The notes under the pieces are model-generated. The model worked only from the letters and a program-made list of their open reading frames with translations, had not been told where the DNA came from and did not search any database. A stretch of DNA of 50,947 nt from Elusimicrobiota bacterium (GTDB lineage Bacteria > Elusimicrobiota > Endomicrobiia > Endomicrobiales > JAPLKN01). Positions 17,222 to 22,623 of the stretch are shown piece by piece; positions within the stretch are counted from its first letter, which is position 1, and the number at the start of each line of letters is the position of its first letter. Both the position numbers and the translations under genes were made by a program. The stretch covers positions 1-50,947 of the forward strand of contig JAPLKN010000124.1 in the NCBI GenBank assembly GCA_026388075.1, in the 5' to 3' direction.

Positions 17222-18856
17222 TTAGTTAAAACTTTTATTTTTTGCTTCGTTTTTCAATCCAGTTATCTGGTACAGCAAATCCTGTTTTTCATCTTTCACA
17301 ACTACAAATAAATCATATCTTTCAACAAATGAAGCAATTTCTTTTGCCTCTAGGCCGGGATGCCGGATATTCAGATCTTTTATGTTTGCCGCTGACGGTT
17401 GAAGCATTTTAGAATCAACATAAATCTTATACCCTTTTTTGATATTTAAATCCACTAATTTTTTTAAGTTTATAAAATATTCGGCGTAATTATTGTTTGC
17501 TTTTTTAAGCTCCTCCGATAAATATATTGCATCAACCTTATAAGGAACAAAATAATTATAGTGCGCCATTTCACGATAAGAAGATATGCCTAAATTAAGA
17601 ATCAACTGATTCTCTTTTGGCCGGTTTTTAAGGAAATCAGTAATTAGCAACATGCCGTTTGAAGAAGCCTTTGTTTCAGACATAATGAATCCGAAGAAAT
17701 TAAAGACAAATAAAAATGAAACAAAAATACCCAAAAATATTCTTTTGACAATTTCCTTGGCGCTTATTTTTTCAATTAAAAAACCCATTATTAAAATCAA
17801 AGGGAATAACAAAAACAAGGCAAACTCTGAATTACCCGGGTCCCACCAAGTATTAAAAGCTCCGAACATCAAAATCCACAATGTCATTGCCGCTATTTTC
17901 CAATTTAAAGAATCGCATATTATTCGAAAGTTTTTAATTGCAAAATAGAAAAACACTATGCCTGAAACTGCCATTCCGGCAAAGAGAGCCGTAAGATAAA
18001 TATTGCCAAAAGATATATTTCCTTTTAGCAAACTTTTCAAGAACATCTCTTCGCCGCCACCCCCATAAAAAACATGGAACAAAGCTTTTAAAGATGCTTT
18101 GATATTCGACATGCCATGCCATATCCCCCATTCTCCTTGATGAGCATACCTGGTTAACCAATAATTAAAATCTCTTGCTGTTCTTATGCCTTCAACAAAA
18201 TACCCCACAAACATATATACGCCAGCCGTTAAAACAAAAGAAATTGTGGAATAAATAACTATCGTTTTAATTTTATTTTTGAGGTCAAGCTTTGATAGCA
18301 ATATGTAAAAAATCGCAAAGAAAAAGAAAAATATGCTGATTTGGTGATACAGCATTGATAAAGAAGTGCTTATTGCCGAGCATGTAATCAACAGAAGTGT
18401 CGGATTATTCACCATTTTATCTGTGAGCAGAAGTGAAAGAGCAATAAAAAATAAGGTTGATATATATACTTCGGGATTGGATACATTAAGCCAAAAACCG
18501 TATGAGAAAACTATAACAAAAGATAACAAAACCGCAATGGTTTTATCTTTTAGAAAGGATTTAGCATACAGATAAAAGAAATAAACAGTTAGGCTTCCGA
18601 AAATCGCATTCATAATCTGCATCGGATAAAGAGCTCCGCCGGAATATCCCAAAAGTCGAAAACATTTATGGAATAAAAATCCTGTAAGATTAAATAGCAG
18701 ATGATGCGGATGGAAAGATTTCCATCCTGACCCGACCGCGCATACATATAACAATGCGTCACCGGTATAGCTCTTAATTATAAAAATTGAAAATAGTAAA
18801 AATATACTCAAAACTAATGAAAAATCAAATAATTTATTTTTATTTTCTAATTGCAT
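17222..18856 (-). CDS. Polytopic membrane protein, GT-C-type glycosyltransferase-like
   Basis: A 544-residue protein with about ten to twelve hydrophobic segments and a roughly 130-residue soluble C-terminus. The first extracytoplasmic loop carries YTGDALLYVCAVGSGWKSFH and PHHLLFN, the acidic-residue and HPHH pattern of lipid-linked-sugar glycosyltransferases and DUF2723-like proteins. Such enzymes transfer sugars from polyprenyl carriers on the outer face of the inner membrane. It lies 38 bp downstream of a secreted collar-domain protein, and a second such pair lies next to it, so glycosylation of the collar protein or of a surface polymer is a reasonable guess. The fold class is moderately sure; donor and acceptor are unknown. 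Confidence 0.65.
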   Translation of the reverse strand: MQLENKNKLFDFSLVLSIFLLFSIFIIKSYTGDALLYVCAVGSGWKSFHPHHLLFNLTGFLFHKCFRLLGYSGGALYPMQIMNAIFGSLTVYFFYLYAKSFLKDKTIAVLLSFVIVFSYGFWLNVSNPEVYISTLFFIALSLLLTDKMVNNPTLLLITCSAISTSLSMLYHQISIFFFFFAIFYILLSKLDLKNKIKTIVIYSTISFVLTAGVYMFVGYFVEGIRTARDFNYWLTRYAHQGEWGIWHGMSNIKASLKALFHVFYGGGGEEMFLKSLLKGNISFGNIYLTALFAGMAVSGIVFFYFAIKNFRIICDSLNWKIAAMTLWILMFGAFNTWWDPGNSEFALFLLFPLILIMGFLIEKISAKEIVKRIFLGIFVSFLFVFNFFGFIMSETKASSNGMLLITDFLKNRPKENQLILNLGISSYREMAHYNYFVPYKVDAIYLSEELKKANNNYAEYFINLKKLVDLNIKKGYKIYVDSKMLQPSAANIKDLNIRHPGLEAKEIASFVERYDLFVVVKDEKQDLLYQITGLKNEAKNKSFN

Positions 18857-18894: not shown

Positions 18895-19813
18895 TTACAT
18901 TTTCATAATAAATGCCAACTTGTAATAGGCTGGACGAATATCAATAGTGTTTCCGCTGCCCGTTGAATCTGTAGTTCCGGAATGGGAGTGATCTCCTGAA
19001 GAATTAGTTAAAGCTGTTCTACTTTGCGATGCACCATCGCCATAAGCAAATGTACTTGCCCCACCAGTATTTCCATATAAATTGGCTGTATGAGAATGTC
19101 CGCCTGGTGAATTTGTTGTAAAAGGATGGGAGTGGGCTGGTAATTGTCCAATTGCCAAAGTAATCGAATGAGATCCACCAGTTCCACCAGGATTCTCGCT
19201 TGAGTTAGCCACAGATAATATAAACCTATCTGTTAAATCAGGAGTTCCTCCTGTTCCATCACAAAGATGCCATCCTGACGGGATATCAGTAATTAGCCCC
19301 GACCACATTCCTATAAATCCTTTCGGGACCATATAATAGGTCGTGCCGGCGCTGAATGTTTTAAACTCTCCCACACTACTCAGATTTCCAACTGCCGACC
19401 CGCCTATCGTCATTGTGATGTCATGACCAGCATCTTCAGAAAAACCTTCGGAGGTTTGGGAATGCAAAGAATACATTTGTGCTGTTATTTTTTCCCTGGG
19501 CGACAATATTTTTGAATTCACCGTAAGTTGGATCCAATAATCTTTACCGCGCCAATCTACATTTGGCGTTAAAATATAACTAAAAATCCCTGAAGACACG
19601 CTTACACTCTGAGTCCCTGACGACCACGAGGCTATACCACCTGATGCTGCCGGGTATATTTCAAAAACCATACTTCTTGACCCATTAGCCGGCTGGCCAT
19701 ATTCTTTGAGCCGTCCTTGATAAACAATCTCATTGGGAACATCTGCAAATAGTATGCCCCCCCCCCATAACCAAAGCGCCAAACAAGATTAACACTGCCG
19801 TAATTTTTTTCAT
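18895..19813 (-). CDS. Secreted tail-collar-domain protein A, out of frame at a G10 tract (phase-variable?)
   Basis: The best start is the ATG at 19813, with GGAGG 5 bases upstream, giving the signal peptide MKKITAVLILFGALVMG. A run of ten G (19757-19766) follows, and with this length the frame is lost. The body (18895-19782 is open) would join in frame if the run were 9 or 12 G, giving a cleavage site near LFA/DVP. The body has an N-terminal beta domain (EIVYQGRLKEYGQP), then a phage tail-collar domain (FIGMWSGLITDIPSGWHLCD, TPDLTDRF), HxH motifs (AHSHP, GHSHT, DHSHSG) and the RPAYYKLAFIMK end. The only other start in the body frame is an internal TTG without a ribosome site. I read it as a phase-off surface protein; a sequencing error in the run is the alternative. 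Confidence 0.75.
19757..19766 (-). repeat. Homopolymer G10 tract (candidate phase-variation switch)
   Basis: Ten consecutive C on the plus strand, read as G10 on the coding strand, lie inside the signal-peptide coding region of collar gene A. Loss of one G or gain of two would put the ATG in frame with the gene body. The equivalent tract in the paralogue has 13. Confidence 0.85.
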
Positions 19814-19879
19814 TGAAACCTCCGAATTAAAATATTAAGAGACATGGATTCCTCCGCCGTGGCGGACGAGAATGACAAA
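19814..19879 (-). promoter_or_regulatory. Duplicated leader of collar gene A
   Basis: The 66 bases before the ATG are nearly identical to 22558-22623. They hold GGAGG 5 bases before the ATG, an AT-rich part (TTAAAATATT) that could include a -10 element, and a TCCGCC/GGCGGA palindrome at the far end. Sequence identity stops beyond this point, so it marks the edge of the duplication. Confidence 0.6.
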
Positions 19880-19971
19880 GATCCTCGGTGCCAGGCATTA
19901 ACTTGTTGACTTATTAATACCCTTACTCCGATTACTTGTTCCCTATTTTTGAATAAATATATCAGTCAATC

Positions 19972-21678
19972 CTATTTTAGCAAAACAATTGTTGGATTAG
20001 TTAAAGGACCCTCATCGACAATATCATATGTCGGCTCCGAATTACCAAATATTTTTACTATTTTATACTTTTTCTGAATTTTTTCTAACATAATTTTATA
20101 GATTTCTAATTTTTCCAATCCTGGAACATTAGAAATATCTTTATTAGTAGGAGAATAAAGGATCAAACCAATATATTCATCTTTTTTTAATTGTTCAGGA
20201 ATTTGACTTAAGTTGCTAAACGGCAATAAACTGTAATCCAAAGTATTAGGCAGTGAAAAATTATGATAATCGTAAAAAAATACTTTAACTTTGTTTTTTA
20301 ATACATAATCAGCGAAATAGTCCCTGGATTCTTTTGGCCATTCGTTTGAAAATTTTCCTTTAAATAACGAGTTAATTCCGCTTAATACAGCGGCATAAGG
20401 ATATGTTCTCAAAGTTCCCAATAAAAGCACAGCGGAGAGCAATATTTTTATATTTTTGGGTGACCGCTGGTATAAAAATATTAAAGGAAAAATAATAAAT
20501 AAGGCGGCCGGTAACAACAGAAAAGCCAGATGTCTCTGAAACATTTGCTCACTCATGTTTACGATTTTATAAAATGAATAAAGATAAAATACCGCGAATC
20601 CACAAAATGCATAAACATTAGTTTTTATCATAAGATATATTGATGATATCACCAAAATGATAAGCGAAATTGCCGATAAACTTGTTAGCAAATTGACATC
20701 CCTCAGAAATTCTAAAATATAATTTAATCTGCCTATCCAAGCGCCATCAACTGTACTCGCGTTATTTAACATTTCCAATAGCCATTTTCTATAATCAGGA
20801 GAAGACAGCCAAGACGCTGGATTGATAATCAAATAAGGCAAAACAATTGCCAAAATTAATACGATCCATTGTTTTTTGTTCTTTATGCATCCAGAAATTA
20901 TTTGTTCTAATGCCAAAGAAAGAGGCAAAAACATTATATAAGCTGCATTTAATTGAATGGCAACAGTTGATGAAGCAAAAACTGCACAGGCAATCAGCCA
21001 ATAAAATTTAGATTTGTTTTCTTTTGCCAAAATCGTTTTAAGAAATAGAATGGTTGTTATTCCCGCAAAGATAACTTGATGAGAAGTAGGAAGCATCTGA
21101 TTTGAATAATAACCCAATATTCCTGACCTATCAAACCACAAATTGAACGCTAAACTAGTAGGCCAAAATGCTAATGGCAAAAGAAATAAAGTGCTTAGCA
21201 TGACAAAAATCATGCTCCCGAAAATAAACAAAATAATCGCTAACACTTTTGTAATATATATTGGCTTGACGGGAACAATCTTTCTAGTAATTGGCCAATG
21301 CGTCCTACCCTGTGCCTTATCCAACATATAATACATCGGTTCTTGCCTGGTTATTTTTTTGTATATCGAAAAAACCAAAGTATATGGATATACGGCAGTT
21401 CCGCCGTATTTAAAAAAAACTGGATTTAATTTGTATTTAAGCGCATTTATTCCAGCATTTATCGCGAAAGGTTCATCATATTCACCAACATAATAAGGCT
21501 TATCCATCGGAATATCATAAATTAAATGTACCCTTGAAAAATAGAAAAGACCAATTAGAATTAAAAATATTGCCAATATTGCTTTGGATATTATTGGAGT
21601 ACCTTTTGATTCATAAGCAATGAATTTATGGTAAAAGTTAATAAGAGATTTGCCAAAGGTTTTAATAATATTAAACAT
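19972..21678 (-). CDS. Polytopic membrane glycosyltransferase-like protein (GT-C, GT39-like)
   Basis: A 568-residue protein with about eleven to thirteen membrane segments. After the first helix comes YVGEYDEPFAINAGINALKY and then LNPVFFKYGGTAVYPY, the D-E-P...NP..F.Y pattern of dolichyl-phosphate-mannose-protein mannosyltransferase-like and ArnT-like enzymes, where the acidic residue is catalytic. About 130 C-terminal residues are soluble. GAGGATAAATT precedes the ATG at 21678. It follows collar gene B by 29 bp. It is not an obvious close copy of the 544-residue protein although both share the GT-C plan. Substrate unknown. Confidence 0.7.
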   Translation of the reverse strand: MFNIIKTFGKSLINFYHKFIAYESKGTPIISKAILAIFLILIGLFYFSRVHLIYDIPMDKPYYVGEYDEPFAINAGINALKYKLNPVFFKYGGTAVYPYTLVFSIYKKITRQEPMYYMLDKAQGRTHWPITRKIVPVKPIYITKVLAIILFIFGSMIFVMLSTLFLLPLAFWPTSLAFNLWFDRSGILGYYSNQMLPTSHQVIFAGITTILFLKTILAKENKSKFYWLIACAVFASSTVAIQLNAAYIMFLPLSLALEQIISGCIKNKKQWIVLILAIVLPYLIINPASWLSSPDYRKWLLEMLNNASTVDGAWIGRLNYILEFLRDVNLLTSLSAISLIILVISSIYLMIKTNVYAFCGFAVFYLYSFYKIVNMSEQMFQRHLAFLLLPAALFIIFPLIFLYQRSPKNIKILLSAVLLLGTLRTYPYAAVLSGINSLFKGKFSNEWPKESRDYFADYVLKNKVKVFFYDYHNFSLPNTLDYSLLPFSNLSQIPEQLKKDEYIGLILYSPTNKDISNVPGLEKLEIYKIMLEKIQKKYKIVKIFGNSEPTYDIVDEGPLTNPTIVLLK

Positions 21679-21707
21679 AATTTATCCTCGCGCTCTATTT
21701 TAAGAAT

Positions 21708-22557
21708 CTATTGCTTCATAATATACGCCAAGGAATAAAATGGCGGTCGATTTTCATGAGATCCTCCTCCCCCAGTAGCATCTGTACTTAAAGCATATGA
21801 TGGCCCTGAAAGCCTAAAACCATTAGTGGAACCTCCTTCAGTATAACTCATAGTCCACATTGTAAAACCATGCGAATGGGAAGGCATTTGAGCTGCTGTT
21901 AATGTTACGCTTTCTGCACCACCAGTATCTGAAACATTATAGCTGCTACCCGCCCCGACAATGAATCTATCTCTTAAATCCGGTGTTCCATTTGTTCCGT
22001 CGCACAATGCCCAACCTGAAGGAATATTGGCTATTGTCCCCGACCAAATACCTATAAAGCCCTTTGGAACCATATAGTAGGTTGTATTTCCAAGAAACGC
22101 CTTAAACTCGCCATCGCTTTTTAGAACTGCCTTTGTCTGCGAACCGATACTCATGGATATGTCTGCTCCTGAATCTTCAGAAAGATTTTCCGCGGTTTTT
22201 GAATGCAATGCAAACACCTGGGCAGTTATTTTTTCTCTCGGAGATAATTCTTTGGAATTCACTGTAATTTGGATCCAGAAGTCTTTCCCTCTCCAGTCTA
22301 CATTTGGGGTTAAAACATAACTAAAAATTCCTGAAGATACATTTACACTTTGCGCCCCGGATGTCCACGACGCTATTCCGCCTGATGCTGCCGGATAAAT
22401 TTCAAAGACCATACTTCTGCTTCCGGAAACCGGCTGACCGTATTCTTTAAGCCGGCCCTGATAGACTATCTCATTGGGAACATCTGCAAATAGTATGCCC
22501 CCCCCCCCCCATAACCAAAGCGCCAAACAAGATTAACACTGCCGTAATTTTTTTCAT
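21708..22557 (-). CDS. Secreted tail-collar-domain protein B, out of frame at a G13 tract (phase-variable?)
   Basis: This is the paralogue of collar gene A. The ATG at 22557 with GGAGG encodes the same MKKITAVLILFGALVMG signal start, then meets thirteen G (22498-22510), which again puts it out of frame with the body open over 21708-22526; 12 or 15 G would restore it. The body repeats EIVYQGRLKEYGQP, the collar domain FIGIWSGTIANIPSGWALCD and TPDLRDRFIVG, a PSHSHGF motif and the RPPFYSLAYIMK end. It lacks the long His/Ser-rich stretch of copy A, so the tips differ while stalk and leader are conserved. It precedes the 568-residue glycosyltransferase gene. Confidence 0.75.
22498..22510 (-). repeat. 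Homopolymer G13 tract (candidate phase-variation switch)
   Basis: Thirteen C on the plus strand, G13 on the coding strand, sit at the same codon position as the G10 tract of the paralogue. The difference is exactly three, so both copies are in the same off phase relative to their ATG. Confidence 0.85.
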
Positions 22558-22623
22558 TGAAACCTCCGAATTAAAATATTAAGAGACATGGATTCGTCCG
22601 CCGTGGCGGACGAGAATGACAAA
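22558..22623 (-). promoter_or_regulatory. Duplicated leader of collar gene B
   Basis: Nearly identical to 19814-19879, with the same GGAGG site and AT-rich middle, and a perfect GTCCGCC/GGCGGAC palindrome (7 bp arms) at its upstream end. It lies between the rlmI stop at 22658 and the collar start. Confidence 0.6.

Follow-up and report, generated by a model that had tools for sequence, protein, structure and literature searches.

Two paralogous genes, here called A and B, lie close together in the window analysed, a stretch of 50,947 nucleotides (contig C124 of a 2.14-Mb Endomicrobiales genome in 167 contigs), and in both of them a run of G inside the signal-peptide codons puts the signal peptide out of frame with the long open body that follows. 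The question raised by this locus is whether such an arrangement corresponds to a reversible switch of an exported protein, to two genes that have been permanently lost or simply to homopolymers whose length has been miscalled.

The start of both genes can be read directly from the sequence, with a GGAGG ribosome-binding site followed by an ATG coding for MKKITAVLILFGALVMG. The common 5′ sequence is GGAGG...ATG AAA AAA ATT ACG GCA GTG TTA ATC TTG TTT GGC GCT TTG GTT ATG, and the last G of the second ATG is the first of the run, which counts 10 G in A and 13 in B. After the run both copies continue as CATACTATTTGCAGATGTTCCC, which in the body frame gives ILFA/DVP (the slash marks the junction between signal peptide and body). 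The signal peptide reads on into the body frame (ILFADVPNEIVYQG...) only if the G count is divisible by three and, with both tracts at n = 1 mod 3, A and B are found in the same off phase. The first-pass annotation had placed the two runs within the signal-peptide codons, had seen signal peptide and body out of frame in both copies and had proposed that 9, 12 or 15 G would join them, all of which is borne out by a direct reading. The product of the present phase is a peptide of 27-28 residues ending in ...GHTICRCSQ before the stop, and an early stop is likewise reached in the remaining phase (n = 2 mod 3). On the other side of the tract, the bodies are open throughout their 262-286 codons, with zero internal stops. 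The coordinates of these features are listed in the table below.

Table. Features of genes A and B and their surroundings (positions in the window)
Feature	Position	Strand	Remarks
Gene A	18895-19813	minus	signal peptide + body
A, mature body (DVPNEI...)	18898-19743	minus	MAT-N-like domain + gp12/collar-type tip; stop codon 18895-18897
A, signal-peptide codons	19744-19813	minus	ATG at 19813; G10 inside; junction in frame in relatives
A, G10 tract	19757-19766	minus	n = 1 mod 3 (OFF)
A, ribosome-binding site GGAGG	19819-19823	minus	read directly
A, 5′ module	19727-19879	minus	leader with TCCGCCacGGCGGA hairpin, ribosome site, signal peptide, tract
Gene B	21708-22557	minus	signal peptide + body
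B, mature body	21711-22484	minus	stop codon 21708-21710
B, signal-peptide codons	22485-22557	minus	ATG at 22557; G13 inside
B, G13 tract	22498-22510	minus	n = 1 mod 3 (OFF)
B, ribosome-binding site GGAGG	22563-22567	minus	read directly
B, 5′ module	22468-22623	minus	counterpart of A module
544-aa multi-membrane protein	17222-18856	minus	downstream of A; weak resemblance to LA_3751-type glycosyltransferase (candidate role)
568-aa protein	19972-21678	minus	downstream of B; without a family match, and no paralogue of the 544-aa protein

Both tracts are embedded in a 5′ module (153 and 156 nt in A and B, respectively), where one substitution and three G make up all the differences between the copies, whereas beyond the modules the bodies show ~80% DNA identity at first and less further on. 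Near-identical modules attached to diverged bodies indicate that the module was copied recently between two old paralogues. Following this copying the tract was altered by three bases and the ~150 flanking nucleotides by only one, suggesting that tract length changes faster than the flanking sequence and that, as judged from this comparison, the G tract of the module is unstable; the variation concerned is that between two copies of one module (10 versus 13) within one genome. On the other hand, their location in a common module means that G10 and G13 are not independent events, and the possibility of two separate occurrences was discarded for this reason. The two tracts therefore do not count as separate support for the proposal of the first-pass annotation. 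Its argument that their difference of exactly three fits selection on frame does not hold either: such a difference has a chance of 1/3, and selection would favour the ON state, whereas both copies are OFF. The leaders of both genes also contain a hairpin, TCCGCCnnGGCGGA (19853-19866 and 22597-22610), inside a repeat of 24 nt (GTCATTCTCG...), which was considered as a mobile element and rejected, since it has merely two further diverged copies in the genome (C153:3309 and C61:13842), ahead of unrelated genes, one of which resembles ATP-synthase beta.

The length of the tracts is far from that expected by chance. The window contains 25 G/C runs of at least 5, the longest of them, excluding those of A and B, being 6, and runs of 7-9 are absent from it, yet it holds the G10 of A and the G13 of B. 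A geometric extrapolation of the run decay in the window predicts ~0.035 runs of at least 10 G per 2.14-Mb genome, as compared to the two observed, one in A and the other in B. Only three tracts of at least 9 G exist in the whole genome, those of A and B plus a G9 in mreB, which is in frame. The tracts of A and B are, in short, homopolymers beyond chance at coding positions where a change of one base shifts the frame. Growth of the tracts through a loss of mismatch repair is not supported, since an intact MutS was found in the source genome, and a MutS match was obtained in 71 of the 84 Endomicrobiales genomes.

Two paralogues from the same genome show what the junction looks like in the absence of poly-G, reading in a single frame MKKQWFLFGIMLCMLFGISYLYA/EVPNEIVYQG (contig C156) and MRKLFFAIFVIFSAGILLA/DVPNEIVYQG (contig C151). 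At least nine relatives in the Endomicrobiales likewise keep an intact signal peptide in frame with [AED]VPNEI and lack poly-G, as exemplified by the junction MCKKVFIFIFLLSAVSFAYA/DVPNEIRYNG of one of them (L017). The in-frame form, taken here as the ON state, is therefore ancestral, and the poly-G tract is an addition in the lineage of the source genome, the sole member of its own family within the searched genome set. All the named relatives recovered by protein search belong to the Endomicrobia/Elusimicrobia. The C151 paralogue (G000:C151:20552-21438, L003) carries a one-base frameshift in its body, soon after KLKEYG and away from homopolymers, which indicates that family members do decay here or that the assembly has indels.

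The bodies of A and B differ with dN 0.28 and dS 1.56 overall, and with dN 0.097 and dS 1.07 along the first 105 codons, so that dN/dS is ~0.1-0.2, with substitutions gathered at third positions. This pattern shows the bodies to have evolved under purifying selection mostly older than the sharing of the module, and to have been translated in the body frame during the greater part of their divergence. As the module was shared late, however, a recent permanent loss would be compatible with this constraint taken alone.

With respect to the encoded protein, tail-collar families of PHROGs match A and B (E 2e-21 and 9e-29), and the profile of the A/B family matches phage tail fibres and T4 gp12 structures in the PDB, as well as a cellular collar protein of Bizionia. 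The collar domain initially proposed for both genes is upheld by these matches and by the C156 paralogue, which scores 87.9 bits against Pfam Collar (PF07484), over its gathering cut-off of 24 bits, whereas A and B themselves (11.2 and 17.4 bits) stay under it. Following the signal peptide, the N-terminal domain weakly matches Bdello_MAT_N (NF053851) in 10 of the 12 family members (best E 1.7e-5); in the search with this model B reaches 20.4 bits against a curated cut-off of 60 and A has no match, for which reason the domain is called here MAT-like and not a MAT member. The order of parts known from MAT proteins can nevertheless be recognised in the alignment and the predicted strands, with a conserved beta-rich domain right after the signal peptide and a collar tip, of predicted adhesive role, at the C-terminus. 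A structure model of the monomer shows strands at 20-100 with good confidence and a C-terminal half of low confidence, and a structure search with it gave weak matches, mostly to collar proteins, the C-terminal half being poorly modelled. The simplest reading would be that of a secreted adhesive fibre, and A and B are probably phage-fibre-like adhesins displayed at the surface. A prophage origin was rejected, given that the adjoining genes are housekeeping ones and the relatives carry signal peptides, and so was a tandem duplication of an adhesin plus glycosyltransferase unit, the two membrane proteins downstream of A and B being dissimilar.

Long poly-G tracts are also widespread in the order, with runs of at least 12 G in 35 of the 84 Endomicrobiales genomes and about 90 tract loci read in our survey. 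Among the genes whose two open halves flank a tract of at least 11 G, 14 of 15 are out of frame against an expectation of two-thirds (each locus counted once, with the two aberrant runs, G64 and G78, excluded), an excess that suggests that some of these genes may be pseudogenes; indeed, the survey includes small genomes, probably those of reduced symbionts, in which genuine pseudogenes are to be expected. The broken genes are of the classic phase-variable kinds, and include HsdS (L135 and L137; G17 and G14), type III mod or related DNA methylases (L225 and L226; G13 and G15), GT8 with both halves recognised (L203; G16), GT11 (L216; G13), an MBOAT O-acyltransferase (L059; G13), FkbM methyltransferases (L204 and L206; G12 and G16), a hexapeptide acetyltransferase (L195; G12), a PMT-like gene (G18) and a Cache/PAS protein (G14). 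Such long tracts, mostly out of frame, compose an apparent order-wide phasome. These loci share with A and B the order, the type of tract and the frameshifting of surface and restriction-modification classes, but they are other genes, nearly all from one other family (f6).

Some additional observations were made during this survey. An unrelated, likely outer-membrane protein (MKNSFVLKFVFAIAAVVFVGGGGILFAEF; L154:957-1580, G052:C69) has a G11 in frame within its signal peptide and the same G-ILFA-[DE] junction as A and B, a striking parallel with an independent tract. A Dam-like DNA methyltransferase (L133, G015:C20) contains, in an FLGGGAVFFE-type motif, a G9 that the assembly shows out of frame. 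Tracts of G64, G78 and a G19-G34 cluster at a contig end (L062, G028:C2; L134, G015:C24) look like assembly or sequencing artefacts, and several surveyed contigs end at poly-G. The genomes of one genus, g10 (G010, G011, G032, G035, G037, G042 and G058), have zero tracts of at least 10 G, unlike other genera of their family.

The ancestral in-frame form, the beyond-chance tracts, the constrained bodies, the change of three G and the order-wide poly-G in phase-variable genes favour slipped-strand phase variation of paired secreted adhesins as the best explanation, to which we would assign a probability of about 0.7; the OFF state of both genes in the consensus sequence counts against it. The same mechanism had been put forward in the first-pass annotation, and the frames, the ancestral form, the constraint and the order survey make it the best-supported reading, once the independence of the two tracts and the argument from selection by threes are set aside. 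Each gene would be a translational on/off contingency locus, in which slippage of the DNA polymerase at the signal-peptide tract makes the run of G longer or shorter. At a length of 9, 12 or 15, ribosomes starting at the ATG would read through an oligo-glycine within the signal peptide and go on to the body, and the adhesin, formed by the signal peptide, a MAT-N-like beta domain of ~110 aa and a T4-gp12/collar-type tip, would be exported, displayed and able to bind, whereas any other count would lead to a stop after ~27 codons and the adhesin would not be made, a state from which cells could return. The tract is carried by the short 5′ cassette, recently copied between A and B by duplication or gene conversion, which would leave two divergent tips each switchable on and off.

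Pseudogenisation and an assembly error of one extra base are serious rivals to this explanation. In the case of pseudogenes, a single tract expansion in the shared module would have silenced A and B for good, and their bodies would be intact merely through recency. This fits with both genes being OFF, with the recent sharing of the module, with the frameshift of the C151 paralogue outside homopolymers and with the excess of out-of-frame tracts among reduced relatives, but the fully open bodies, the perfect ribosome site and signal peptide, a tract that went on changing length after the module was shared and the concentration of the order's poly-G in classic phase-variable classes make it unlikely. 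An error of assembly or sequencing, with true lengths of 9 and 12, A and B simply ON and a harmless oligo-glycine, would explain that each tract equals an ON length plus one, and consensus calls of G10-13 are uncertain by ~1. However, the other window genes that were checked are intact, with full-length family matches, which indicates that the assembly is not indel-prone, and a run of 9-12 G would remain mutable and far beyond chance, so we regard this possibility as quite unlikely.

Two further alternatives keep the assembled sequence and look for expression from it. If the ribosome or the RNA polymerase slipped on the G tract, the frame could be restored in part, giving a constant low expression; the common register of A and B would suit this, and slippage is conceivable on so long a tract, but the documented motifs of transcriptional slippage are mainly A/T runs (PMC3711429) and the length of the tract is not conserved between A and B, which renders recoding very improbable. 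Translation of a cytoplasmic body from an internal TTG, which opens frames of 295 (A) and 272 (B) codons, is hardly credible, as no recognisable ribosome site precedes this TTG, the product would start with MALWLWGGG and lack a charged signal peptide, and in the paralogues and relatives it is the upstream ATG that begins an exported product.

Slipped-strand phase variation would bring homopolymer switching to an uncultured lineage of the Elusimicrobiota, on secreted MAT/gp12-like fibres, while the same type of tract breaks restriction-modification and surface-glycan genes in many relatives of the source genome. More tentatively, it is possible that the poly-G phasome of the Endomicrobiales is genome-scale and that, in the family of the source genome, the 5′ switch cassette moves among paralogous adhesin genes by gene conversion, bringing diverging tips under a common switch that flips independently, which would provide an uncultured non-pathogen with a combinatorial adhesin repertoire. 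If sequencing reads confirm the switching, archived metagenomes would offer a direct test of adhesin switching at the population level in an organism that has never been grown, and many annotated 'pseudogenes' of the Endomicrobiales would need to be read again. A literature search, with subscription papers outside its reach, found no report of phase variation in Elusimicrobiota or Endomicrobia; such switching in this phylum and gene class, and a copied switch module, seem to be new to the literature searched, whereas the mechanism itself is known.

On/off switching by copying slips in poly-G is well known from pathogens such as Neisseria, where the G tract of pilC is located in the signal-peptide region, and most work on homopolymer-driven phase variation concerns pathogens and host-adapted commensals. 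As for the protein, T4 gp12 and the phage tail collars (PF07484, PF21939, PDB 1ocy) share with A and B the gp12-type tip in the C-terminal half, but A and B have a signal peptide and sit among housekeeping genes, not in a prophage. The MAT proteins of Bdellovibrio form fibres on the cell surface, in which a conserved domain immediately follows the signal peptide and the adhesive tips vary (PMC10769870), and the term 'phase variation' is absent from the main text of that paper. Their plan of signal peptide, conserved beta-rich domain and phage-fibre-like adhesive tip is that of A and B, although they are much longer (~1,000 versus ~300 aa) and the similarity amounts to ~20 bits against a cut-off of 60. 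With regard to the switch, poly-G phase variation is attributed to pilC1/pilC2 of Neisseria (Jonsson et al. 1991, as cited in PMC5953494), with G tracts of G9-20 (PMC5953494). PilC/PilY1 is a pilus-associated, unrelated protein from another phylum, for which switching has been proven experimentally, but pilC1/pilC2, as two paralogues each with a G tract that frameshifts an adhesion-related exported protein, are the closest precedent for A and B.
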